Positions 1 through 17,810 of a stretch of 22,817 bases of DNA are shown here, piece after piece. Each line of letters starts with the position of its first letter. The first letter of the stretch is position 1. The stretch spans positions 1-22,817 of IMG/VR virus record IMGVR_UViG_3300012944_000064; one strand, written 5' to 3'. The notes beneath the pieces were generated by a model, which was not told where the DNA came from, did no database searches, and saw only the letters and a list, made by a program, of their open reading frames with translations. Position numbers and translations under genes: made by a program. This DNA comes from a virus.

Positions 1-1
1 C

Positions 2-199
2 ATGACCACCAAGGTGATCGAGCTCGAGCACGAGGAGCTGGGCCGCCTCGAGTCCCAGAAGGAAGGGCGCCAGCTGATCGGCGACTTCATGCGGCAGACG
101 CAGCAATCCCAGGACGCGCTGAAGGACATGATGCAGCGCGCGCTCGACAAGCGCGGGCGGGATCCCGTGCTGATCGAGCATAACCAGAGCGAGGGCTAG
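2..199 (+). CDS. Small hypothetical protein upstream of terminase (possibly 5'-truncated)
   Basis: A 65-residue frame opens at an ATG on the second base of the window, so the real start may lie upstream and this may be only the C-terminal part of a longer protein. The visible product is charged and probably helical (Glu/Gln/Arg/Lys rich, residues 5-55), with no membrane segment or recognisable motif. It ends at TAG five bases before the terminase GTG, and its last codons supply a GAGGG ribosome-binding sequence for that gene. Position directly before the large terminase gene would fit a small terminase subunit or a linker protein, but nothing in the residues proves this. Confidence 0.5.
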   Translation: MTTKVIELEHEELGRLESQKEGRQLIGDFMRQTQQSQDALKDMMQRALDKRGRDPVLIEHNQSEG

Positions 200-204
200 G
201 TTCC

Positions 205-1884
205 GTGCAGCCACGCATCAGCGGCAGGGAGCGGATCCAGATCGCCAGCCGCGCCGAGCAGGCGATCATGAAGTACGCGAAGCCTGACCCGGACACCGGC
301 TGCCGGCCGCACGCGCTCTGGCACAAGCACGTACACAACGTCAACCTGGATCCCATGCAGGTCCTGAAGATGATGGAGATGGACCGGCACAAGAACACGC
401 TCGACTTCTCCTGCCGGCGCACGCGCAAAACCTCGGTGAAGGAACTCTACAACCTGGAGCGCCTGGCCACGGGGCCATATCACGAGCTCGGCATCGTCGC
501 GCCGCGCGAGCGCCAGTCGCAGAACAACCTGCTGTATCACCTCGAGGCGATCCGGCGCTCGGACATGCTGAAGTCCTACATCGCGTACAAGTCCGGCCGG
601 CAGCAGCTCTCAGAAACGAAGTACGAATTCGTCAACAATTCCGTAGCGAAAATCTACGGGATCATGGCCCAGGTGGACGGCGACTCGCTGGCGATCGCCA
701 GCCTGGAGGAGGTGGACGACATGCCGGCGGACCGCCTTTTCACGAAGTTCCTGCCCATGCTCGGCGCGACGCAGCGCCTGGGCGCGGACGTGGTGATCGA
801 GCCGGAGATCCGCATCACCGGCGTATTCAAGGGCGCGGACACGCTGCAGCGCCTGGTAGACGGTAGTAATTATCACGTGCTGCCGATCGTGGATGCCTAC
901 CTGGGCATCGAGCTGGGCATCATCACCGAGGCCTGGCGCGCGCGGCAGGCCTCGGATCTCCCGGAAGCGGAATACATCAGGCAATTCCTTTGCCTCAACG
1001 TGGCGGCGCGCAACCTGATCTGGGAGATCTGGATCCGCCGCTCCATGGCGGTGGGGCTGCAGGCCGGGATCGAGCTGGCGGAGCCGCTGCCCGGCCGCAA
1101 GTACAAGAAAAGGGGATTGATCACCATCGGCTACGACCACACCGGCCACGGCGAGAGCGGTACCGCCTCGAAGAGCGCCGCGGTGGTGTCCGAGCAGATC
1201 GGCAATTACGTGACCTATCCGTACGCGCGGACGTGGAAGCCCGGGACCGACGACAAGGACCTCGAACTCGACCTGTATTCGATCTGGGACTATTTCATGC
1301 CGGACGCGGCGATCGGGGATGCGTACGGGGTCGGCATGCTGACCGGCCTCAACGACCGCCTCTACCGCGGCGGGCTCACCACGATAGACCGGCGCACGGT
1401 GGGCAATGGAGAGAGCAACGCCACCAACTGGCCGGACTGGGCATTCGCGCCGCTGCGATTCGAGGGCATGACCAAGCACTCAATGGCGACCGGACTGCGG
1501 AACATCTTCCACAACGGCCGTGCCGCGCTGCCCTATATCGAGGAGGCATTCCCGGCGATCGACGGCTCCACCGGAACGATTGTCATGCCGATGGCCCTCA
1601 ACGAGCTCGCCGGCGTCGCCGGGGACCTCGCGTTGCTGGTGCGCCAGCTCGGCAACATCAAGCCGGAGAAGAACGCGACCTCCGGCATGCGCGGGAGTTA
1701 CGACAGCTACAAGATGGCCGACCCGAAGATCGGCGATGACCTTTTCGACGCGGCGATGGCGGCGACCTGGGCGCTGATCAGCCGCGGCTCGGAGCTCGTC
1801 CCGGGCGTGATCCTCAGCCGCACCCAGACCCGCGAGCAGCTGCTCGGCCAACAGCTTGCTTTGCCGCAGCGGGCGGCTGCGTGA
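205..1884 (+). CDS. Phage terminase, large subunit (ATPase and nuclease)
   Basis: This 559-residue protein is the DNA-packaging motor: it cuts concatemeric DNA and pumps it into the prohead through the portal using ATP. A deviant Walker A motif, CRRTRKTS, is at residues 70-77, and a hydrophobic strand followed by acidic residues (SLAIASLEEVDD, 161-172) fits Walker B plus the catalytic glutamate. The C-terminal half has the RNase H-like nuclease pattern: GYDHTGHG with Asp311, AIGDAYGVGM with Asp372, and an acidic cluster IGDDLFDAA near 509-517. The size and the portal downstream agree. The start is GTG at 205, with GAGGG at 191-195. An ATG at 268 is possible but would trim the N-terminus. The stop overlaps the GTG of the next gene. 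Function is secure; the exact start is less so. Confidence 0.9.
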   Translation: MQPRISGRERIQIASRAEQAIMKYAKPDPDTGCRPHALWHKHVHNVNLDPMQVLKMMEMDRHKNTLDFSCRRTRKTSVKELYNLERLATGPYHELGIVAPRERQSQNNLLYHLEAIRRSDMLKSYIAYKSGRQQLSETKYEFVNNSVAKIYGIMAQVDGDSLAIASLEEVDDMPADRLFTKFLPMLGATQRLGADVVIEPEIRITGVFKGADTLQRLVDGSNYHVLPIVDAYLGIELGIITEAWRARQASDLPEAEYIRQFLCLNVAARNLIWEIWIRRSMAVGLQAGIELAEPLPGRKYKKRGLITIGYDHTGHGESGTASKSAAVVSEQIGNYVTYPYARTWKPGTDDKDLELDLYSIWDYFMPDAAIGDAYGVGMLTGLNDRLYRGGLTTIDRRTVGNGESNATNWPDWAFAPLRFEGMTKHSMATGLRNIFHNGRAALPYIEEAFPAIDGSTGTIVMPMALNELAGVAGDLALLVRQLGNIKPEKNATSGMRGSYDSYKMADPKIGDDLFDAAMAATWALISRGSELVPGVILSRTQTREQLLGQQLALPQRAAA

Positions 1885-2114
1885 ACGGTGCCACCGTCAG
1901 GATACAGCTCGACCGGCGCGCTCAGGCTCGAGCGGAGGCCATGCGCGCGGCCGTGCACCAGCAGATCCCGGAAGCGCTGCCGTGGATCCGGGACCTGATC
2001 GCCGCCGGGTTGATCGAAGGCTGGCGCGACGTGAGCTACGTAGGGCCACCGCGAACGGACAACAGCATCTCGGCGGACCGCATCGAACTCAAGCCAAAGG
2101 AGCATAAGGCATGA
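1881..2114 (+). CDS. Small protein between terminase and portal
   Basis: This 77-residue protein starts at a GTG overlapping the terminase stop (GTGA) and ends in an ATGA overlap with the portal start, so it is translationally coupled on both sides. Those two overlaps are the main reason to believe it. The N-terminal half is Arg/Ala rich and probably helical; the C-terminal half includes IPEALPWIRDLIAAGLIEGW. There are no cysteines or membrane segments. Its tail end carries AAAGGAG at 2096-2102, the portal ribosome-binding site. I do not recognise the family. Small genes at this place in other phages include head-tail joining proteins (lambda gpW type), but no residue pattern supports that name here. 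Confidence 0.65.
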   Translation: MNGATVRIQLDRRAQARAEAMRAAVHQQIPEALPWIRDLIAAGLIEGWRDVSYVGPPRTDNSISADRIELKPKEHKA

Positions 2115-3469
2115 CCCTCCTGCAACGCATGTTCAAAATCAAGCCGCCGGCGACACTGCCCAACGAGCAGGCCTCGATCGCCAACCGGGGAAGCGAAATC
2201 GGTGTGCGCGCGACACCGGAGAACGAGCTCAAGTACATGTATCGCCAGATGTGGGTGGATCCGGACCTGCGCCAGGCGATTCTCGACGTGCGTGAAGCCG
2301 ATCGCCTCGATGGACGGGTCAAGCGCGTGCATTCACGGATTGCGCGGGACGTGATCAAGGGCGGGCTGCTGCTGCAGCAGGCGACGGAGAACAAGACGCT
2401 CGCGAAGGAATGGCAGGCCTTCGGCAAGCGCCTGCAGCTCGACCGCCGCGAAAAACTCAAGTCAGACGCGCGCGGCTTCGTGATGGAGGGGAATCTGCCG
2501 ATGCAATGGGTGATGGACAAGCAATTCAACGTCATCGCCGGCGTGCGCATGCCCTCCGAGACCATTCTTCCGAATGTGAATCAACACGGCCAGTTCAAGG
2601 ACGTAGCCAGGGCCTACAGCCAGTTCGACATCCTCACCGGCGCCGTGCGCGCCGACTTCGCGCTGTGGCAGATGACGGTGGCGCGCTTCGACCCGGACAA
2701 CTTCGACGACATGGGCGCGCTCGGACGCCCGCTGCTGGATGCGTCTCGCACCACCTGGCAGAAGCTGAGAATGACCGAGGAGGACCTGGTCATCCGCCGG
2801 CGCGTGCGGGCGCCGCTTCGCGTACAGCACGTCCTCAAGGGGGCGACAAGTCCCGAGCTCGAGGAATACCGGGCACAAGATGAAAAGGACCAGAACCACA
2901 TCACCACCAACTACTACACGAACAGAGAAGGCGGCGTAAACGCGATTCAGGGCGATGCGAATCTGGACCAGATCAAGGACATCTCGCTTCTGCTGGATTC
3001 ATTTTTCTCCGGGACGCCGGTGCCGAAGGGCCTCATGGGCTATACGGACGCTCTCGCACGCGACATCCTCGAGGACATGAAGCGCGATTACTACGAGGAG
3101 ATCGACGACCTCCAGGACACGCTCGCTTTTCTTTACGAGGCGTCGTTTCGCCTGCAGCTCCTGCTCAAGGGCATCAATCCGGAGGCCGAGGATTTCTGCA
3201 TCGCCTACGCCGAGCGGCGCACCGAGACGCCGAACCAGGCCGCCGATCGCGCGCTCAAGCTGCAGGCGCTGGGGCTGCCCTTCGGCATGCTGTGGGAGGA
3301 GATGGGCTACAACGCTGCGTACGTGCGCGAGCGCATCGAATGGGAGCGGGAAAACTTCGATCCCTATCCGGACGATGCCGGCATCACGCCCGCCGGCAAC
3401 GGTCGTGTCAGCATCACGCCGGGAAACCAGCGCAAGGGTGAGAGCGGCACGGCGATCAGGAATCGCTGA
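2111..3469 (+). CDS. Phage portal protein
   Basis: This 452-residue protein is called the dodecameric portal at the capsid vertex through which DNA enters and leaves. Evidence is its place between terminase and MuF minor head protein, its length (portals are usually 400-550 residues), and typical portal features: an N-terminal segment with MYRQMWVDPDLRQAI, a mixed alpha/beta body with GNLPMQWVMDK, a long acidic helix region around residues 310-355 (DILEDMKRDYYEEIDDLQD) compatible with the stem and crown, and a C-terminal stretch rich in Pro, Asn and Gly. The ATG at 2111 has AAAGGAG eight bases upstream. The stop shares one base with the next start (TGATG). The Mu-like gene order suggests a Mu gp29-type portal, but I cannot assign the subfamily from sequence alone. 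Confidence 0.85.
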   Translation: MTLLQRMFKIKPPATLPNEQASIANRGSEIGVRATPENELKYMYRQMWVDPDLRQAILDVREADRLDGRVKRVHSRIARDVIKGGLLLQQATENKTLAKEWQAFGKRLQLDRREKLKSDARGFVMEGNLPMQWVMDKQFNVIAGVRMPSETILPNVNQHGQFKDVARAYSQFDILTGAVRADFALWQMTVARFDPDNFDDMGALGRPLLDASRTTWQKLRMTEEDLVIRRRVRAPLRVQHVLKGATSPELEEYRAQDEKDQNHITTNYYTNREGGVNAIQGDANLDQIKDISLLLDSFFSGTPVPKGLMGYTDALARDILEDMKRDYYEEIDDLQDTLAFLYEASFRLQLLLKGINPEAEDFCIAYAERRTETPNQAADRALKLQALGLPFGMLWEEMGYNAAYVRERIEWERENFDPYPDDAGITPAGNGRVSITPGNQRKGESGTAIRNR

Positions 3470-3819
3470 TGGCTCAGGTCAGCAGAAAGTTGAGGTCCGT
3501 GGGGGACGCCAAGGGCGTTCACGTCGGCTATTCGCACTGGTGCCCTGGCTGCGAGCACATGCATGTCATCTACACGTCCAACTATAGAGTGATGTGGAAA
3601 TTCAACGGCGACGTGGAGCGGCCCACGTTTGAGCCGAGCGTCAATCACACCTGGGGCAAGTACGCCGACCCGTCATTCGTGGACGAGTATCCCGGTGAAT
3701 CTGGCCGATGCCATTACTTCATTCGTGCTGGAGTGATCGAATTCTGCGGAGACTGCACGCACCGATTCAGCGGCCAAACCGTTGCATTGCCGGATCTACC
3801 GGCGGTTCACCGTGACTGA
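3469..3819 (+). CDS. DUF6527-like Cys-rich phage protein
   Basis: This 116-residue protein matches my memory of the DUF6527 family of small phage proteins. Signatures are HWCPGCEHMHVI (Cys25, Cys28), WKFNGDVERPTFEPSV, CHYFIRAG (Cys81) and EFCGDCTHRFSGQTVALPDLP (Cys93, Cys96). The CxxC pair plus the C/H/C residues near the end look like a small zinc-binding fold, but no biochemical role is known to me; some database names for the family (for example dehydrogenase-like names) are not supported by any visible motif. It joins both the portal and MuF genes by one-base TGATG overlaps, so it is fixed in the head operon. It has more A/T than its neighbours, which may point to later acquisition. Confidence 0.75.
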   Translation: MAQVSRKLRSVGDAKGVHVGYSHWCPGCEHMHVIYTSNYRVMWKFNGDVERPTFEPSVNHTWGKYADPSFVDEYPGESGRCHYFIRAGVIEFCGDCTHRFSGQTVALPDLPAVHRD

Positions 3820-5639
3820 TGCCCAGCACGGCTGAAGCCGCGGCGATCCGCCGCGCCACCTTTGCAGCTCACAAGGACATCGAGCAGCTCGACGCCGCAG
3901 CGCTGCAGGATCTGCAGCGGATCTACCGCCAGGCGGCGGCTGACCTGACTGACCGGATCCAGTCGCACGCGGGCCCGGACGGGAATCTTGCCCTGCAGGA
4001 GATGCGCAGCGCGCTGGCGCAAGTGGAAGGGCGGCTGCGGGATCTCGGCCAGGCCCGTGATGCGATGCTCGAAGGCAACCTGGTCAAGGCGGCCCAGCTC
4101 GGCACCCGGCCGTTCACGGCGGCCGCCGGCGTCGAGGCCGTCGTATCCACGCCCGGATCCATGGCGATCGCCAATGAGGCGCTGACTTTCGTGCGCAACT
4201 TCATCGCCGCGGACGGCCTGCAGCTCTCCGACCGGCTCTGGCGTCTCGACCGCGGCACACGCGACGCAATCGTGAACACGATCGAGCAGGCGGTGATCCA
4301 GGGGCATGGAGCCAGCCGTGCTGCGCTCGATTTGCTGGCGACCGGCGCCGGCGTGCCGGCTGACGTTCAGGCCAAGATCAAGGCCGCCAGCGCGGCCGGT
4401 ATCAGCAAGGCGGTGCAGGAACGGATGCTGGCTGACCAGGAGGGCGGCGCGCTCTACAACGCGCAACGCATCATGCGCACCGAGCTCAACCGGGCCCACG
4501 GCGAGGCCTATATGCTCTCCGGTGACGATCATCCCGATTTCGGGGCATGGCAGTACCTGCTGTCGCCGGCGCATCCGAAGCCCGATATCTGCGACCTGCT
4601 CTCGACGCAGAACCTGTACGGCCTGGGCGCGGGCTGCTATCCCGACCGGGAAACGCTGCCGTGGCCTGCACACCCGAACACGCTTTCCTTCGTGGTGATC
4701 AAGTTCCAGGACGAGATCACCGACGCCGACCGCCAGGGCAAGGAAACGCCGATGCAGGCTCTGGCGCGGCTCAAGCCCGAGCAGCGCGTCGGCGTGCTGG
4801 GCAAGAAAAAAAATCAGGTCTACAAGGATGGCGACCTGAAGCAAGGCATGATCCGGGCCCCGTGGAAGGCGGTGAAGATCCGCGCCGGCGACCGCAAGGT
4901 GGTCACGCCATTGCCGCGATCGCCGCGTCCGGCGATCGAGAAGGCGCAGCGATTGCCGGTGGCGACCGCCGCACTCAAGGGCCTGGCTGCCAAGTTGCGT
5001 TTTCCCGGGATCACCCTCGACCAGGCGAAGTCGATTGCCGCGGGCCTGCAGGCGGTGCTGGGGCCGTATGGCTTCAGAGTCGGCACCCTGGGGTGGACCA
5101 GTAAGGGCGAGGATGCCTTCGGGCTGTATACCCACTACCGATTCGGGCATCAGCCTGGGCTGAACGACTCGCTGCGCATCCAGAAGAACTACGCCGCGAG
5201 CGCGTCCACCACCGAGCGGCGGCTGCAGGCGATGAATGATCTGCGGAATACGGAACAACGCCGGCAGGTCGAGGCATTGCTGGAGACGGAGCGGTCGGAG
5301 TCCAGCCGGCGAGATCTCGAAACCCGGCTTGCCACCATTCGCGCCAATAAGCGATGGGCGGCATCGGGAGATGCCGAGGATCCTCTTTTCGTGGTGGCGG
5401 CTCACGAATCCGGCCACGCGCTGTACTACTCGCGCGCGGACGTGATGTTGACGTGGGTGGAGGAACTCAGCCGGCGGAAGGTCATGCGGATTGATCGCAT
5501 CAAGGTATCGGACTATGCGACGAAGAACGATTCCGAGCTCTTCGCCGAGGTCACGGCCCTGATCGCGGACAGACGGCGCGGCGAGGTCCCGGAGAAGATC
5601 CTGCAGGCGTATGATGCTGCCGTTGCCAAGGTGAAATGA
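3819..5639 (+). CDS. MuF-type minor head protein fused to a zincin-like metallopeptidase domain
   Basis: A 606-residue two-part protein. Residues about 1-300 form the MuF/SPP1 gp7 head morphogenesis region: long helices, then RIMRTELNRAHGEAY (217-231) and the signature SPAHPKPDICDLLS (249-262) with GLGAGCYPDR and LPWPAHPNTLSFVVI (280-294). Such proteins sit inside the capsid near the portal and may be ejected with DNA. Residues about 385-606 are not part of a standard MuF protein: a linker, a charged helix region (460-510), then VVAAHESGHALYY with the zinc-protease motif H529-E-S-G-H533, and 40 residues later SDYATKNDSELFAEVTAL (564-581), whose glutamates could give the third zinc ligand. This H-E-x-x-H plus YAxxNxxExFAE layout resembles anthrax lethal factor-like zincins. 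Polymorphic toxin domains fused to MuF are known in temperate phages; a role in head maturation is the alternative. Confidence 0.85.
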   Translation: MPSTAEAAAIRRATFAAHKDIEQLDAAALQDLQRIYRQAAADLTDRIQSHAGPDGNLALQEMRSALAQVEGRLRDLGQARDAMLEGNLVKAAQLGTRPFTAAAGVEAVVSTPGSMAIANEALTFVRNFIAADGLQLSDRLWRLDRGTRDAIVNTIEQAVIQGHGASRAALDLLATGAGVPADVQAKIKAASAAGISKAVQERMLADQEGGALYNAQRIMRTELNRAHGEAYMLSGDDHPDFGAWQYLLSPAHPKPDICDLLSTQNLYGLGAGCYPDRETLPWPAHPNTLSFVVIKFQDEITDADRQGKETPMQALARLKPEQRVGVLGKKKNQVYKDGDLKQGMIRAPWKAVKIRAGDRKVVTPLPRSPRPAIEKAQRLPVATAALKGLAAKLRFPGITLDQAKSIAAGLQAVLGPYGFRVGTLGWTSKGEDAFGLYTHYRFGHQPGLNDSLRIQKNYAASASTTERRLQAMNDLRNTEQRRQVEALLETERSESSRRDLETRLATIRANKRWAASGDAEDPLFVVAAHESGHALYYSRADVMLTWVEELSRRKVMRIDRIKVSDYATKNDSELFAEVTALIADRRRGEVPEKILQAYDAAVAKVK

Positions 5640-5818
5640 TGCCTCAATCCGCCCAATGCACCCGGTGCGCGCACTACCGCCTGTTCGGTGAGTGCGCGGC
5701 GTTTCCGAAGGGGATCCCCGATCCCATCTTCGCGGGTGAGCACGATCACACCCAGCCTTACCCGGGTGACAATGGCATACGCTTCGAGCCGTTGAAAATC
5801 CCGGCGCCGCAATCGTAG
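5636..5818 (+). CDS. Small Cys-containing protein downstream of MuF-zincin
   Basis: A 60-residue protein whose ATG overlaps the MuF stop (ATGATG; the ATG at 5639 is equally possible). It has CTRCAHYRLFGECAAF (Cys8, Cys11, Cys20) followed by a Pro/Gly-rich segment with DHTQPYPGDNGIRFEPL. I recall small bacterial and phage proteins with this CxxC plus AFPxGIP plus GDNGIxFEP pattern, all uncharacterised. The three cysteines with the histidines could bind a metal. Tight coupling to a MuF gene with a putative effector domain makes it a candidate partner or antidote, but the pattern is also found away from such genes as far as I recall, so this is only a hypothesis. Confidence 0.65.
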   Translation: MMPQSAQCTRCAHYRLFGECAAFPKGIPDPIFAGEHDHTQPYPGDNGIRFEPLKIPAPQS

Positions 5819-5880
5819 TCCCGCCTCGCCAAAGTCCCCCCCTGTTTTCCGCTTGACCTAAATCCGATCATCCGCCACGT

Positions 5881-5895
5881 CGGGCATTGCGCCCG
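5881..5895 (+). other. Short hairpin in the gap before the protease gene
   Basis: The 85-base gap 5819-5903 holds a five-base-pair perfect inverted repeat, CGGGC-attgc-GCCCG, a few bases before the GAGGT ribosome-binding sequence (5898-5902) of the protease gene. There is no T-tract, so it is not a convincing terminator. It could modulate initiation. A TTGACC hexamer at 5853-5858 has no acceptable -10 partner. A run of seven C (5836-5842) is the only other feature seen in the gap. Confidence 0.3.
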
Positions 5896-5906
5896 TCGAG
5901 GTAATG

Positions 5907-6674
5907 ATGAATCGGAAGCTGATTGCTGTTGCCTGCCTCGGCGCCCTCATGGCGCCGTCCTGCGCTGCCCCCGCAGTGGAAACTGAGGGGCGGCACTTCA
6001 AGCTCGAGGGCGGACTCCCGGAGGGAGTTCACCGCTGCATCTCATCCGCGATCAAGAACCTGTCCCTGGACGGGGACAAGCCGCAGACGTGGGAAACGCT
6101 GACCCGGACGGGCACGTTTCACGATCCACGTTACGGCGAGTTCGACATCACGCGGCCGATGCTGCTGGAAATGGTCTCGAACTTCGAGAAGGGCGTGTAC
6201 GGCCAGGATGTATTCATCGACGTAGGCCACGAGCCCTCCAAGGGCGCGGCGGCGCGGGTCCTGAAGCTGGCCGTCGAGGGCAACAAGCTGCGCGCGCTCC
6301 TGGAGTGGACGCTCTACGGCTTGAACGCCGTGAAGCAGCTCGGCATGCGGTATTTCTCGCTCGAGTACCACGACAACTGGCAGGACAACGAGAAGCGCGC
6401 GCGCCACGGCGCCGTGATGCTCGGAGCCGGCCTGACGATTCGCCCGGTCATCAAGGGCCTCGATCCCGTGCAGCTTGCCGAGCCCAACGGGCCCGCGCTG
6501 CATCCCGAACTCGCCATCCAACTCTTTCAGGAGAAACAAGCCATGTGGAAGCAACTGATGGAAGCCCTGCGGGCCAAGCTCGCCTCGTTCAAGCTCGCCG
6601 ACGCCCTGGTCAAGACGCTCGCGGACGCCGCTGAAAAGGCCCTCGGCCCGATCACCGACGAGACCGCCGCCTAG
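5907..6674 (+). CDS. Mu gpI-like prohead maturation protease
   Basis: This 255-residue protein fits the Mu-like prohead protease family, which trims scaffold and capsid proteins during head maturation. The core is FIDVGHEPSKGAAARVLKL (103-121, candidate catalytic His108), LRALLEWTLYGLNAVKQLG, MRYFSLEY (148-155, candidate nucleophile Ser151) and HGAVMLGAGLTIRPVIKGL (167-185), following the usual order in gpI proteins. The N-terminus (KLIAVACLGALMAPSCAAPA) looks like a signal peptide, but gpI-type proteins often have such a hydrophobic start, so export is not implied. ATG 5907 is preferred over 5904 because GAGG lies five bases upstream. From residue 213 a charged helical, scaffold-like tail begins at an internal ATG. 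The gene ends at an amber codon, after which the same frame stays open into the capsid gene. Confidence 0.8.
   Translation: MNRKLIAVACLGALMAPSCAAPAVETEGRHFKLEGGLPEGVHRCISSAIKNLSLDGDKPQTWETLTRTGTFHDPRYGEFDITRPMLLEMVSNFEKGVYGQDVFIDVGHEPSKGAAARVLKLAVEGNKLRALLEWTLYGLNAVKQLGMRYFSLEYHDNWQDNEKRARHGAVMLGAGLTIRPVIKGLDPVQLAEPNGPALHPELAIQLFQEKQAMWKQLMEALRAKLASFKLADALVKTLADAAEKALGPITDETAA
6543..6674 (+). CDS. Possible nested in-frame scaffold start inside the protease gene
   Basis: An ATG at 6543 in the protease frame is preceded by a consensus AGGAG at 6529-6533 with nine bases of spacing, a better signal than that of several certain genes here. It would give a 43-residue, helical, Lys/Ala/Leu-rich peptide starting MWKQLMEALRAKLASF and ending at the amber codon 6672-6674, or a scaffold-capsid fusion if that codon is read through. 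Phage Mu makes its scaffold Z from an in-frame internal start in gene I, so the arrangement has precedent. Whether the site is used cannot be told from sequence. Confidence 0.45.
   Translation: MWKQLMEALRAKLASFKLADALVKTLADAAEKALGPITDETAA
6672..6674 (+). other. In-frame amber codon separating protease and capsid frames
   Basis: TAG lies in the frame GCC-TAG-GCG-CTC. Both flanks are in the same frame, and the 69 bases between this stop and the first downstream GTG (6744) translate to plausible helical protein (ALIAAFEVSGKQLAEQL) without another stop. A weak hairpin, GGCCT-tcg-AGGTC, follows at about 6687-6699. The frame is therefore open from 5904 to 8549 except for this one codon. TAG also ends other genes here (197-199, 5816-5818, 13751-13753, 16830-16832), which argues against general amber reassignment. 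Confidence 0.85.
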
Positions 6675-6743
6675 GCGCTCATCGCGGCCTTCGAGGTCTC
6701 GGGCAAGCAGCTCGCCGAGCAGCTGACGGCCGGCGCCACCGAC

Positions 6744-8549
6744 GTGAAGATCACGCTCGCGATTCCGGACAGCTTCAAGGCCGGACTGGACGAGGCCGCC
6801 GTGAAGAAGCTCATGGAGGATATGGCCACGGCCCGCACCACCGCCGAGAAAAAGCTGACGGAGGATCTCGCCAAAAACGTCAAGCTGCTGACGGACACGA
6901 TCACGGCCGCTCAGGGAATCGACGACGAGCTCAAGAAAGAGCTGACCGAATCGGCCAAGGACCTGGTCTCGGCGCAGATGACAGAAGATCAGGTGAAGAA
7001 GCTCGCCAACGTGCAGATCGTCTCAGGCAATCGCACCGTGGCGGCGCGCCAGCTCGGCGGCCGCGGCTATCAGTGGCCACAGGGCGACGTTCGCATCACC
7101 CTGGACGGATCGAACGAGATCAAGGCGCTGCAGGCCGAAGTGGACAAGCGGCTGGACCGCATGCCCAAACACAACCGTTATCGGCTCTCCGACGGCGCTC
7201 CGATCGAAGGCAATAAGGCGCTGGTCGAGGCCTCGCTCGCCCTCTACGACGCCCAGCACGCGCGCCGGCTGCACGCCGAGTACGAGAGCATGAAGAAGCT
7301 CGCCGCCGGCGACGGCATCATCTCGGACGTCGCGATCCCGGCGATCTACGAGCGCACGGTGCTGCGCGAAGCGCTCATCCAGCTGGTGGGCCTGGGCCTG
7401 TGCGACGTCGGCACGGACAAGTTCACCACGGTGATCCAGATCCCGTATTCCTTCCGCGACACCGCCGCGGCGGGCGTGGCGCAGACGCGCACCTATGAAG
7501 GCCAGGCGATCCGGCGCGCCGGCGTGAAGCAGACCATGGAAGAAGCCCGTCCGATCCCGCAGAAGCTCGCCTTCGAGGTGTCGGATGAAATGCGCTACCT
7601 GGTGGCCAACGGCGTGTTGAGCTTCGACATTCTCGCTGACAACGCCAACAACGCGGTGCGGATCGTCGGCGAGGACGGCGAGCAGATCATCTTCAACGAG
7701 CACCTCAACGCGGCCGATCAGTTCGCCAATACCGCAGTGGTGGACGAGGCGGTGGCGACGGGCGACGGAACGAAGTCGATCTATATCACCAACAACTTCC
7801 CGGTGGTGCGGCCGAAGAAAGTTTTCGACCTCCAGGGTGTCCAGGTCGGCGCGACCTTGTATCCGATCACGGTCAAGACCAACGCCGTGACCCGCACGGA
7901 GTACGACTTTACCAACCTGCAGGCGCCCGGCCTCTACTGGTACATGGACTACAACCTGGGCGAGATCCACTTCGTCACCGAGCTCGGAGCGCCGTCCAAC
8001 GTGACCAACGCGCACGCGATCCTCTGCTCCTACAACTACACGACTAACGTGTACAAGTGGGACAGCGACCTCGGCGCGCTCAAGACGGACGAGAAATACG
8101 ACGACTTCCTGTATCGCTTCGGCCTGCGCAAGGCGATCGTCGAGGACCGGGCCTACATGGCCAACCTCGCCATCATGAGCGGGACGCTGCGTACCCAGAT
8201 CGAGCAGGCCCGGCAATTCAGCGCCAACTTCAAGCGCCCGGGCACGGATCTCCTGGTGGACGGCAACCTCGGCCGCATCAAGGACGTCCCTGCCTTCCGC
8301 AGCTACGCGCCGGGGCTGGCCATGGGCGACCAGCGCGTGATCGTCTGCGAGCGCGGTACCACGCGCTTCCGGATGCTCAAGCCCTGGACGATGGGGCAGC
8401 TGCAGGACCAGCGCGACGCGAACGGGCGCTTCACGGGCAAGAAGGAAGCCTACGGTGACCAGTTCATCGTGGTGCACACGCCGACCGAACTGAAGAAGGC
8501 GTTCACCTCGATGGTGGTCTACAGCGCCGCCGCCCGGGTCGACCGGTAA
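6744..8549 (+). CDS. Major capsid protein with scaffold-like N-terminal region
   Basis: Position right after the protease, size and composition identify the main head shell protein, probably of HK97 fold. Counting from GTG 6744 (601 residues): residues 1-95 are highly charged helix (VKKLMEDMATARTTAEKKL and similar), like a scaffold or delta domain removed by the protease. Residues about 110-340 and 445-600 form the shell part, with DGIISDVAIPAIYERTVLREALIQL near 190 and a basic C-terminus ending in VVYSAAARVDR. Residues about 345-440 are beta-rich and aromatic (GLYWYMDYNLGEIHFVTE) and look like an inserted surface domain. The start is uncertain: no Shine-Dalgarno sequence precedes GTG 6744 or the later ATGs at 6813 and 6822, and the frame is open back to the amber codon at 6672 and beyond. 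A fusion with the upstream frame is therefore possible. Confidence 0.8.
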   Translation: MKITLAIPDSFKAGLDEAAVKKLMEDMATARTTAEKKLTEDLAKNVKLLTDTITAAQGIDDELKKELTESAKDLVSAQMTEDQVKKLANVQIVSGNRTVAARQLGGRGYQWPQGDVRITLDGSNEIKALQAEVDKRLDRMPKHNRYRLSDGAPIEGNKALVEASLALYDAQHARRLHAEYESMKKLAAGDGIISDVAIPAIYERTVLREALIQLVGLGLCDVGTDKFTTVIQIPYSFRDTAAAGVAQTRTYEGQAIRRAGVKQTMEEARPIPQKLAFEVSDEMRYLVANGVLSFDILADNANNAVRIVGEDGEQIIFNEHLNAADQFANTAVVDEAVATGDGTKSIYITNNFPVVRPKKVFDLQGVQVGATLYPITVKTNAVTRTEYDFTNLQAPGLYWYMDYNLGEIHFVTELGAPSNVTNAHAILCSYNYTTNVYKWDSDLGALKTDEKYDDFLYRFGLRKAIVEDRAYMANLAIMSGTLRTQIEQARQFSANFKRPGTDLLVDGNLGRIKDVPAFRSYAPGLAMGDQRVIVCERGTTRFRMLKPWTMGQLQDQRDANGRFTGKKEAYGDQFIVVHTPTELKKAFTSMVVYSAAARVDR

Positions 8550-8575
8550 CCGCCCGCCGTTCAACTGTGCAGAGT

Positions 8576-8599
8576 CCGCCCCGGTGCAAGCCGGGGCGG
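8576..8599 (+). terminator. Strong hairpin after the capsid gene (possible partial terminator)
   Basis: A perfect nine-base-pair inverted repeat, CCGCCCCGG - tgcaag - CCGGGGCGG, lies 26 bases after the capsid stop. The following bases (gtattgctta) contain few T, so termination would be weak. It may reduce transcription into the tail region or protect the 3' end of the capsid message, giving more capsid than downstream protein. It is the strongest stem-loop I noticed in the window. Confidence 0.55.
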
Positions 8600-8625
8600 G
8601 TATTGCTTAGAGAAAGGAACATCAC

Positions 8626-13789: not shown

Positions 13790-13805
13790 TTAAGGAGTGT
13801 TGAAA

Positions 13806-14171
13806 ATGGAAAAAATCAAACTGTCGCTGAAACCGCTGAAGCCAGCGCGCTGGGAGACGCATGAACCCACCGGCGTGAAATTTCTGATCGCGCCCCTCAT
13901 CGGAGAGGAGGACCAGGATCTGACCGATCAATCCAGCAACATGATGGGCGTGGTGAACCCCATGCAGTTCGCCCGCCTCGCGGCCCCGAAAGTCCTGCGC
14001 GACTGGCAGCACGTCAGCGACGCCAACGGCACGGCCGTTGCGTGCAATCCGGAGAACATCAAGGAATTCGTCACCCATCATGGCGTGACCATCATGCCGT
14101 GGGTGATCCGCCGCGCCCGCTCGATCGACCACTACCGCACCGCGGAGGTCGAGGAAGCAAAAAAAGACTGA
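13806..14171 (+). CDS. Tail assembly chaperone, short form (lambda gpG analogue)
   Basis: A 121-residue protein from ATG 13806, with AAGGAG (13792-13797) eight bases upstream; GTG 13797 overlaps that site and is unlikely. It lies between tail tube and tape measure, the place of the gpG/gpGT pair that coats the tape measure during tail assembly in long-tailed phages. The sequence opens with MEKIKLSLKPLKPARWE and includes FLIAPLIGEEDQDLTDQ and a helical C-terminus. The last codons, GCA-AAA-AAA-GAC-TGA, form a -1 slippery site, and the overlapping frame encodes the extension. Assignment is strong from this combination. Confidence 0.85.
   Translation: MEKIKLSLKPLKPARWETHEPTGVKFLIAPLIGEEDQDLTDQSSNMMGVVNPMQFARLAAPKVLRDWQHVSDANGTAVACNPENIKEFVTHHGVTIMPWVIRRARSIDHYRTAEVEEAKKD
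14159..14165 (+). promoter_or_regulatory. Programmed -1 frameshift slippery site A AAA AAA
   Basis: Seven A residues are phased as A-AAA-AAA in the gpG-like frame and followed by G, a canonical X XXY YYZ heptamer. A short stem, TGACG/CGTCA with a seven-base loop (14169-14173 with 14181-14185), begins three bases downstream and may stimulate slippage. The -1 frame then reads AGA-CTG-ACG onward without a stop to 14488. Confidence 0.85.
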
Positions 14172-14488
14172 CGGCCCGCGCGTCATGGGAGATCTCGCTC
14201 GGATGGAGCTACATCAACGAAATCCGGAAAGCGGGTCGTCAGGTGGATCCGCAGGACCTCCCGCCGGATCTGGGGTGGGAAGCGCCGGTGTGGACCCTGT
14301 ATTGCCGGATATCCAGTCAATGGCGTGTGGGCTTCGGCGGACGCGTCGGGCTGGATTACGGCGTTGCGCTACCGCTGATCGAAAAGCGCGGCTGGAAAAC
14401 GGAACTCGCGCTCGATCTGTTGAGGGCGATCGAGTCCACCTATCTGGAATTGGACGAGAATGAACGAGAGCGAACGCGTCGGCATTGA
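14165..14488 (+). CDS. Tail assembly chaperone frameshift extension (lambda gpT analogue)
   Basis: The -1 frame after the slippery site codes for about 107 residues beginning RLTARASWEISLGWSYINE and including WTLYCRISSQWRVGFGG and GWKTELALDLLRAIESTY. It has no plausible start of its own, so it is expected only as the C-terminal part of a fusion of about 227 residues (13806-14165 joined to 14165-14488). In lambda the T part of gpGT contacts the tail tube protein. It overlaps the tape measure start by 29 bases. Confidence 0.85.
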   Translation, partial: RLTARASWEISLGWSYINEIRKAGRQVDPQDLPPDLGWEAPVWTLYCRISSQWRVGFGGRVGLDYGVALPLIEKRGWKTELALDLLRAIESTYLELDENERERTRRH

Positions 14489-16832
14489 CATCACGACCAC
14501 CTACTCGGGGAAAGGCACCGAGGCGGCGCGCCGCGACCTCCGTTCACTCGATCAGGAGGTTCAGGAAGTCGCGGGGCAGATGAAGCAGATGGCGTCGGCC
14601 TCCGATGCCACGAACAATTCATGGGGGCGTCAGGAGAGCGCCCTCAATAAGCTGGACGAGGAGCTGGAGAGTTTTCTGACCGTTTCCGACAAGAGCTATC
14701 GCGCGCAGCGGCAGCTCGACACCGGGAACGATCTCCTTTTCCGAAGCCTGAATGCGGGACTCATCACCCAGGAACAACACGATACGCTGCTTGAAAGGCT
14801 GTCCCAGAAATACGGTGCTGCGGCATCGGGCGCGCAGCAGCTCGGGAGAGCGAGTTCCAGCACGGCGCGCGAGATGGCAACGCTGGGGCGGGCGTTAGCC
14901 ACTGGCAACCTGGAACAGGCGGCACAAACATCCGGCGTACTCGCCGTGCGCGTGGGCGGTATCGGAATAGCGGGCATCGCCGCCGCCGGTGGAATCGCCG
15001 CGGTGGTTGGAACGCTCGCGCTGCTGATGGCCGAGCAGGAGCGTTTCGACCGTTCCTTGAACCGCATCAACGCAATGATCGGCGCAACCGGCCGCGAAGT
15101 GGCGCTCACCCGTTCGGAGATCCAGGCGCTGGTCAAAGACATCGAACAGCTGCCAGGCATGAACCGCGCCGGCGCGCTCGAGGTGGTGGGGGCGTCCGGC
15201 GGCCAGGGACTGAACGAGGACCTGTTTCGTCGCATCACCCTGCTCGCCAACGATTTTGCATTCGCCACCGGTCGCACCGCTCCAAAGGCGATGGAGGAAC
15301 TGGCCAAAGCTGCCCAAGGTGGCGGCAAGGAACTGTTGAAACTGGATGAAAACTACAAAATCCTCACGCTCGATCAGTACCAGTCCATTCAACAGTTCAT
15401 CAAGCAAGGCGATGCGGTTCAGGCGGCGGGGGTATTCCTGGCGGCCTACGAGGCGCGGCTGAGCGGGCTCAGGGGATCGGCCATGACGCCGCTGGAGGCG
15501 AGCGTAGACCGCCTGGGCAATGCGTGGACCGGGCTCACCGAACGCATGGGCAGCGGCGGTGGACTGGAGACGGCCGCCGATCGGCTGGCGAGGATCACCA
15601 AAGGGCTGTCATGGTTGATCGACAATGCGGAGACCCTCGGCAGGCTGACGATGCCGGGCGCCGCTTTGTCCTTCATTTTCTCCGGCAGCGCGAAAGGAAA
15701 CGATGAAGAAGCCGAATGGGAGCGTCGCGCCGCGGCTGCGAGGAAAAGAACGGCCAATGAAGGTGCGGAACGCAAGCGATTGGAGACGCAAGGAATCGAT
15801 CATGACAAGGCGCAAGCTGAGCAGGATGACAACGTAAGGAAGTTTCTCGACCAGAAAGCGAAGGAAGCCGACGCGAAGGCCAAACAAGAGTCGGAGCGGC
15901 GGGGCCGCGAAGCGCTTGCAGGCCATCTCACCGGCATGAAGTTCGAGCAGGACACGCAGGCCGAGATCGACAAGGCTGTGGCCGATATGCAAAAGCGGCT
16001 GAAGGCACGCGAGTACTACGAAAACATCTATGGCGAGGATATCACTACCGGTAAGACCACCGAGGAACTCGCCGCCTATCACAAGCAACTGCTTGAAGGC
16101 ATAGACGCACAGGCCGAGATAGAAGAAAACCTGATGCGCCTCAATGCCGGTTTCGACGAGCACGGCAAGGAGGTCAAGGCGGTGGGCGACGAGTATAAAG
16201 ACCTCAAGTTCGCCGTGGAGGGATGGGGCCGCGACAGCTCGCGCGCCCTGGCCAAGGCCGCCCTGGATGGCAAGATGAGCTTTGACACTCTAGGCAGCGC
16301 CGCCCGCCGCTTCGCCGAGGATCTGCTCGCAATCCAGATCCAGCGCTCAGTCATGGACCCCTTGCTCAAGGGCGCGACTGCCTATCTCGGCGATCTGTTC
16401 CGCGGCGGCGGCAGCGGTGCACCCGCACCGGAGGCCGATCTCACCGGTTCCTATGCGGAGATGGCGGCGATGGGATTGCCCTATCACACGGGCGGCATCG
16501 TCGGGGACAACCGCCCCGGGCGTTCGGTGGCGCCGTGGGTGTTCGACAACGCGCCCCGGTATCACCGCGGCGGCCTGGTCCAGGACGAGGTGCCGATCAT
16601 CGCCCGGCGCGGAGAAGAGGTGCTGACGGAGAACGACCCCCGGCACCGGAACAATGCCGGACCGCGCAACGTGCGCGTGGAGATCGTCAATCAGGGCGCG
16701 CCGCAGGAAGTGGTCTCCGCGCAGCCGAAATTCGATGCTGAAGGCATGGTGATCCAGATCGTCACCCGCGATCTCACCAACGGCGGACCGATCCGGTCTG
16801 CCGTGCAGAGTCTGGTTAAACCGATTCGATAG
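14460..16832 (+). CDS. Tail tape measure protein
   Basis: A 790-residue protein that sets tail length and may enter the host envelope with DNA. It starts MNESERVGIDITTTYSGKG, followed by long charged helices (20-120), a Gly/Ala/Ile membrane-like segment at about 160-190, a globular or helical region to 400, a very charged Lys/Glu/Ala helix (about 415-560), and a C-terminal part with VEGWGRDSSRALAKAALDG like the lambda H C-terminal domain, then Gly/His/Arg motifs HTGGIVG and YHRGGLVQDEVPIIARRGEE typical of tape measures. The usual rule of about 0.15 nm per residue would give a tail near 120 nm. The start lies inside the chaperone extension frame with only a weak ribosome-binding sequence. Confidence 0.9.
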   Translation: MNESERVGIDITTTYSGKGTEAARRDLRSLDQEVQEVAGQMKQMASASDATNNSWGRQESALNKLDEELESFLTVSDKSYRAQRQLDTGNDLLFRSLNAGLITQEQHDTLLERLSQKYGAAASGAQQLGRASSSTAREMATLGRALATGNLEQAAQTSGVLAVRVGGIGIAGIAAAGGIAAVVGTLALLMAEQERFDRSLNRINAMIGATGREVALTRSEIQALVKDIEQLPGMNRAGALEVVGASGGQGLNEDLFRRITLLANDFAFATGRTAPKAMEELAKAAQGGGKELLKLDENYKILTLDQYQSIQQFIKQGDAVQAAGVFLAAYEARLSGLRGSAMTPLEASVDRLGNAWTGLTERMGSGGGLETAADRLARITKGLSWLIDNAETLGRLTMPGAALSFIFSGSAKGNDEEAEWERRAAAARKRTANEGAERKRLETQGIDHDKAQAEQDDNVRKFLDQKAKEADAKAKQESERRGREALAGHLTGMKFEQDTQAEIDKAVADMQKRLKAREYYENIYGEDITTGKTTEELAAYHKQLLEGIDAQAEIEENLMRLNAGFDEHGKEVKAVGDEYKDLKFAVEGWGRDSSRALAKAALDGKMSFDTLGSAARRFAEDLLAIQIQRSVMDPLLKGATAYLGDLFRGGGSGAPAPEADLTGSYAEMAAMGLPYHTGGIVGDNRPGRSVAPWVFDNAPRYHRGGLVQDEVPIIARRGEEVLTENDPRHRNNAGPRNVRVEIVNQGAPQEVVSAQPKFDAEGMVIQIVTRDLTNGGPIRSAVQSLVKPIR

Positions 16833-16841
16833 GAGAAAACA

Positions 16842-17810
16842 ATGCCCGTCACCGTCTATAAATCCACCGATGGCAGTGCGCCAGCACTCAACGGCAATGC
16901 GGGCTCGCTGTGCACGGTGCTGGACGCCATTCTGGTGAACGGCTACGGCGCGAAGGCTCCCGCGGGCTGGGCCATTCCCTTCACCGGCACCAATAAGCGC
17001 ATTTACCGGGCACCGAGCGGCGCACTGCGTGGTTATTACCGGGTGCAGGATGATGCGCCACGAGCCGCTCCTTTCGCGGATGCCCGCGAGGCCCGAATAA
17101 AGGGTTCGGAAGCGGCCTCGGCGATCGACACGCAGACCAACTTGTTTCCGACCGCCACCCAGCTGGGCAACGGGTTGTTTCCCCGGAAGTCGATTACTGC
17201 GGACGGCACGGCGCGTCCGTGGGTGTGCGTGGCCGATGCCAGGACGATGTATTTCTTTGCCATGACGGGAGACTACGTCGGGTACGCCGCGTTCATGATG
17301 GGGGAATATTATTCCCTGAAGTCATCGGCCGATAACTTCAACGGCATGGTGATCGGCCGTAACATCGAGCAGATCGCCGCCACACCGACACCGCTGCCGG
17401 CGCAGGAAGGGCTGCACGTGCTGTCCGTGTTGTCCGTTGCCGGTGCGGGCCACTACGTTCCCCGGTCCTACCAGGAGGCAGGCGCTTCTGCCGTGAACCT
17501 GGGTAAGCACGGTAGTGGAGCGCACTCACTGGCAGGGCTGTTTGGTCTCGCCCAGTACCCCAACCCCATTGATGCGGGACTGTATTTGGCGGCTGTATGG
17601 CTGCACGAGCCATCGGCTGTTGGAATCTTGCGCGGCCGCCTCCGCGGCTTCTGGCATTTCCTGCATCCCGTCGGCTCCGGGGTGAACGATGGCGATACCT
17701 GGTCCGGATCCGGGCCGCTGGCCGGCAAGAGCTTTATCGCGATCAAGCCGACTGCCGATGGCCTCGGCATGTTCGTGATGGAAACGTCGGACACCTGGGA
17801 AACCAACTGA
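16842..17810 (+). CDS. Uncharacterised tail-region structural protein
   Basis: A 322-residue protein with AGGAG (16831-16835) six bases before the ATG, the G of the tape measure stop TAG (16830-16832) falling inside it. It is rich in Gly, Ala and aromatic residues and looks beta-sheet rich and soluble: MPVTVYKSTDGSAPALNG at the start, WAIPFTGTNKRIYRAPSG, GYYRVQDDAP, and MYFFAMTGDYVGYAAFMMG in the middle. There is no signal, coiled coil or enzymatic motif I recognise. Position between tape measure and the M-like gene points to a distal tail or tip role. Similar proteins of unknown function occur in other siphoviruses as far as I recall. Confidence 0.75.
   Translation: MPVTVYKSTDGSAPALNGNAGSLCTVLDAILVNGYGAKAPAGWAIPFTGTNKRIYRAPSGALRGYYRVQDDAPRAAPFADAREARIKGSEAASAIDTQTNLFPTATQLGNGLFPRKSITADGTARPWVCVADARTMYFFAMTGDYVGYAAFMMGEYYSLKSSADNFNGMVIGRNIEQIAATPTPLPAQEGLHVLSVLSVAGAGHYVPRSYQEAGASAVNLGKHGSGAHSLAGLFGLAQYPNPIDAGLYLAAVWLHEPSAVGILRGRLRGFWHFLHPVGSGVNDGDTWSGSGPLAGKSFIAIKPTADGLGMFVMETSDTWETN

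Follow-up and report, generated by a model that had tools for sequence, protein, structure and literature searches.

A viral protease–scaffold–capsid fusion gene with a TAG codon private to one record and a probable nested start for a scaffold–capsid product

The frame at positions 5904–8549 of the IMG/VR virus record IMGVR_UViG_3300012944_000064 (here the window, that is, the whole stretch of 22,817 bases that was analysed) is best read, with a probability of roughly nine in ten, as a single late protease–scaffold–MCP fusion gene that carries a TAG codon private to this record and two likely starts, the products of which would co-assemble and lose the scaffold through the action of the built-in protease. 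Translation agrees with the first-pass annotation, made from the sequence of the window, that nothing but TAG 6672–6674 interrupts this frame, which then stays open to the TAA ending at 8549. The intact allele has 881 codons, with ATG 5904 or 5907 as the likely first codon. The 624-residue part 3′ of the TAG aligns with a relative from its residue 4 on, and this homology, together with the unbroken frame in the relatives, shows that the halves on either side of the TAG are one gene and not a chance succession. In the open reading frame list of the window no further gene appears broken. The coordinates of the features discussed are collected in table 1.

Table 1. Features of the fusion gene in the window.
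Feature	Coordinates	Strand	Basis
Protease–scaffold–capsid fusion gene	5904..8549	+	open but for the TAG; unbroken in L039, the twin contig, and in the remaining fusion homologues
Predicted protease domain, assemblin-like, Mu gpI type	5904..6542	+	Pfam, PHROG, fold model, invariant His109/Ser152
Putative internal start: AGGAG, 9-nt spacer, ATG 6543; nested scaffold–capsid product, 668 codons	6529..6545	+	conservation
Predicted helical scaffold (delta-like) region, end approximate	6543..7310	+	all-helix model, residues 1–255 of the nested product
TAG stop, private to the window record; AAG (Lys) in the twin contig	6672..6674	+	only difference in 8616 shared bases
Predicted HK97-fold MCP region, start approximate	7340..8546	+	Foldseek against the PDB

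A search of viral contigs yielded a twin, IMGVR_UViG_3300015245_000198 (L039, 9232 bp), that is identical to positions 1–8616 of the window except at base 6672, where the window has T and the twin A. With AAG in place of TAG the twin carries the gene as an unbroken frame of 881 codons, the allele comparison at this base being with one near-identical contig, which was also the only one matched when viral contigs, a set that may lack the records closest to the window, were scanned for the junction pattern with any base allowed at 6672. A single difference in 8.6 kb that happens to be a nonsense codon in an essential gene would resemble an error free of selection or a mutation that arose very recently, since standing variation is expected to be mostly silent. 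With T at 6672, positions 6668–6677 form a perfect 10-bp palindrome (CGCCTAGGCG), which is lost with A and may have a bearing on the origin of the change or error.

The wider family was surveyed by a search with an alignment of three sequences, which found 29 matching loci among viral contigs and another 3 among contigs of bacterial genomes. No stop falls within the matches, and each full-length match reads as a single open frame no shorter than about 850 codons. At the column of the TAG the residue is K, E, A, S or T, and never a stop, in 26/26 distinct fusion sequences, a set that includes the twin and one sequence cut at its 5′ end; an uninterrupted frame for protease, scaffold and capsid is found in the twin and the other fusion homologues, and only the TAG breaks it in the window record. 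As judged from these alignments, the TAG is a one-base change private to the record, that is, a recent nonsense mutation or a sequencing or assembly error. The first-pass annotation had listed, as one of three possibilities, a polyprotein split by a sequencing error or a recent nonsense mutation, and the check it recommended, aligning homologous loci at the TAG column, bears this out, with a sense codon throughout and never a conserved stop. By the same comparisons the protease–scaffold–MCP fusion is the state common to the whole family. Two loci with protease-only matches (L034, L035) were considered as split versions and rejected; they resemble truncated, broken or recombined prophages.

The N-terminal part of the gene is predicted to encode a Mu-I-type (assemblin-like) protease, in which His109 and Ser152 are invariant across 21 homologues. 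The Pfam family Mu-like_Pro scores 21 bits on this part, below the cut-off of 25.2 (E 2.8e-4), and PHROG 328, head maturation protease, matches it with E 5.8e-4. The protease model (pLDDT 76) finds herpesvirus assemblins as its top Foldseek matches, with T4 gp21 also listed, all of them weak (E above 0.01, TM about 0.3). The predicted N-terminus of the window gene (positions 5904–5975, MMNRKLIAVACLGALMAPSC) is signal-like, basic and then hydrophobic; akin stretches occur in L008, L009, L017, L020 and L033 and not in most relatives. For the part after the protease, the capsid part included, Pfam, NCBIfam and the functionally named PHROG families gave no match, and a sequence search of the PDB returned chance matches only, so that fold comparison was chosen. 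Foldseek against the PDB gave 223 matches at or below E 1e-3, the best 50 of which are tailed-virus capsids except for two encapsulin chains (probability 1.00), and these place an HK97-fold capsid domain at the C-terminus. Taken together, the models describe a gene in which the protease is followed by a helical scaffold and then by a capsid protein with the HK97 fold.

An internal start that the first-pass annotation had overlooked lies at the protease/scaffold border, 129 bases upstream of the TAG. ATG 6543, with its Shine–Dalgarno (SD) sequence, is the strongest internal start of the gene, and its conservation was followed in a non-redundant set of 21 homologues (below 85% identity; start codon counted within 3 columns). 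A start codon stands at the nested position in 21/21, accompanied in 19/21 by an SD 4 nt long or longer, the latter figure not representing independent events as the homologues are related (14 groups below 60% identity); the next best position with SD and start in the whole gene reaches 7/21. In L011 and L026 the nested codon is GTG (Val), so that a start codon, rather than methionine, is what is kept, and L024 and L027 retain the ATG without a clear SD. Synonymous resampling of the upstream codons gave a mean of 9.4 SDs and never exceeded 17 in 2000 runs, so that the observed conservation is greater than amino-acid constraint would produce. In 9 of the 21 homologues, moreover, every plausible first start lacks an SD 4 nt long or longer, an observation in favour of initiation mainly at the nested codon. 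Across the 21 homologues, no other nested start was conserved from which a free capsid protein could arise. The conserved in-frame SD and start at the protease/scaffold border, as looked for on the pattern of Mu I/Z, implies nested expression as in that system, by which a protease-free scaffold–capsid product would be obtained.

Two further features were observed in the course of the analysis. A strong GC hairpin followed by a T run, similar to an intrinsic terminator, lies within about 45 nt upstream of the first start of the fused gene in L010, L011, L012, L014, L015, L016 and L022, and in the window, L008 and L009 the GC hairpin at this place lacks the T run; the hairpin may attenuate or insulate the capsid transcript. 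Before the tape-measure gene of the window (14460), two overlapping frames (13797–14488), with a run of seven A (14159–14165) just before their first stop, look like a programmed frameshift of tail assembly chaperones.

From these elements a path of expression and assembly can be proposed. Ribosomes starting at 5904/5907 would produce the full protease–scaffold–capsid chain in smaller amount, and those starting at ATG 6543 would produce scaffold–capsid without the protease. Both chains would co-assemble into the procapsid, where the built-in protease would excise both the scaffold and its own domain, so that the HK97-fold shell remains. It seems rather probable, with appreciable room for doubt, that the head of a little-described family of tailed phages is made in this way, one gene yielding a major scaffold–capsid chain and a minor full chain by nested starts, with the protease housed within the shell subunit and its dose set by the two starts. 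If the TAG allele were real, neither chain would extend to codon 257 and capsid protein would be lacking, unless rescued by a weak start further downstream or by a suppressor host.

The last of these routes is the alternative that survives best, namely a real amber allele that replicates by means of a host amber suppressor tRNA or of TAG reassignment. The tolerance of the column for K, E, A, S and T makes it probable that an inserted residue would be accepted, and few genes of the window end in TAG. However, three others do so in the gene list (at 5818, 13753 and 16832), and the tape-measure gene does so at 16832 directly before the next start at 16842; no tRNA gene was found in the window, and the same strain exists with AAG. 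This explanation is very unlikely. The first-pass annotation had counted at least four other genes ending in TAG, rather than three, but its opinion that general amber reassignment is unlikely stands, as reassignment is still unsupported.

Even less probable is a pair of split genes, in which the protease–scaffold ends at the TAG and the capsid has a start of its own, or is re-initiated, at GTG 6744, GTG 6801 or later. An unusual initiation of the capsid had been among the earlier suggestions, with the remark that neither GTG 6744 nor later in-frame ATGs have an SD; this is correct for GTG 6744, but ATG 7590 has GAGGT at 10 nt, and GTG 6801 has GAGG at 5 nt, a point in favour of a separate start. 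A split arrangement also exists at a distant Mu-like locus (L038, 27% identity), where a protease–scaffold gene, a small gene and a capsid-sized gene are separate. Within the family, however, the gene is always fused and no relative has a stop at this place. None of the starts downstream of the TAG is conserved, those at GTG 6801 and ATG 7590 included: the best score 7/21 and 5/21, whereas the conserved internal start, at the nested site, scores 19/21 and precedes the TAG. Programmed amber readthrough, also raised by the first-pass annotation and by which the protease(-scaffold) would end at the TAG with a fraction of the ribosomes continuing into the fusion, would account for real protein in the same frame on either side of the codon, but it can be practically dismissed given that stops at or near the position are absent from all relatives, with AAG in the twin and sense codons in every fusion homologue, and that a capsid made only by readthrough would be a minor product, the opposite of what a shell needs.

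The private TAG calls for caution, in that a base peculiar to one metagenome contig can mimic recoding or a split gene. The architecture of the gene outweighs the TAG in importance, as one gene family unites two known tricks, a scaffold–capsid fusion and a nested in-frame start for the scaffold. If this is true, two start sites in one gene would be a simple way to set the protease dose of the procapsid.

The same nesting is known from herpesvirus UL26/UL26.5 and from lambda C/Nu3. Among phages closer to the present case, initiation of the scaffold inside the protease gene has been described for Mu (I with nested Z) and proposed for PaMx73, in which the putative scaffold start uses a Val codon preceded by ACGAGGA at 9 nt (PMC4378225). 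The window family is similar to both in the combination of a Mu I type protease with an in-frame SD and start at the protease/scaffold border (PMC4378225), and the PaMx73 Val start comes close to the GTG nested starts of L011 and L026. In Mu-like phages, however, the capsid is a separate gene, whereas in the window family it is fused to the scaffold.

In Pseudomonas phage MD8, according to the available part of its description, one gene (gp5, 693 aa) has been proposed to encode maturation protease, scaffold and HK97-fold capsid, in this order, as the window gene does (PMC8508860). The same text aligns the MD8 protease/scaffold with that of phage lambda, whereas the window protease matches Mu gpI/assemblin, and it does not mention an internal start, while the window family has a nested one (PMC8508860). 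Fused protease and major capsid genes are also found, on the accounts available in part, in Paracoccus prophages (PMC6536676) and in the Rhodobacter capsulatus RcC phages (PMC8601537); the Paracoccus fusion differs in having a ClpP type protease and a Mu gpT-like capsid domain (PMC6536676), and nested starts are not mentioned in the available portions of either report (PMC6536676, PMC8601537). No report of a nested start combined with a scaffold–capsid fusion in one gene was found in the literature searched.

The one relative found in the phage collection, Microcystis phage vB_MaeS-yong1 (MT855965), is a true homologue, about 38% identical, that carries GGAG and then ATG at the nested site. 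Its gene is a single 848-aa CDS that is annotated as a hypothetical protein with the remark ‘Mu-like prophage I protein’, the capsid part being unrecognised in the record. In the same entry (L002, MT855965.1) a neighbouring 234-nt CDS (5024–5257) is labelled ‘major head protein’, probably by mistake, and the capsid domain is in the next CDS.
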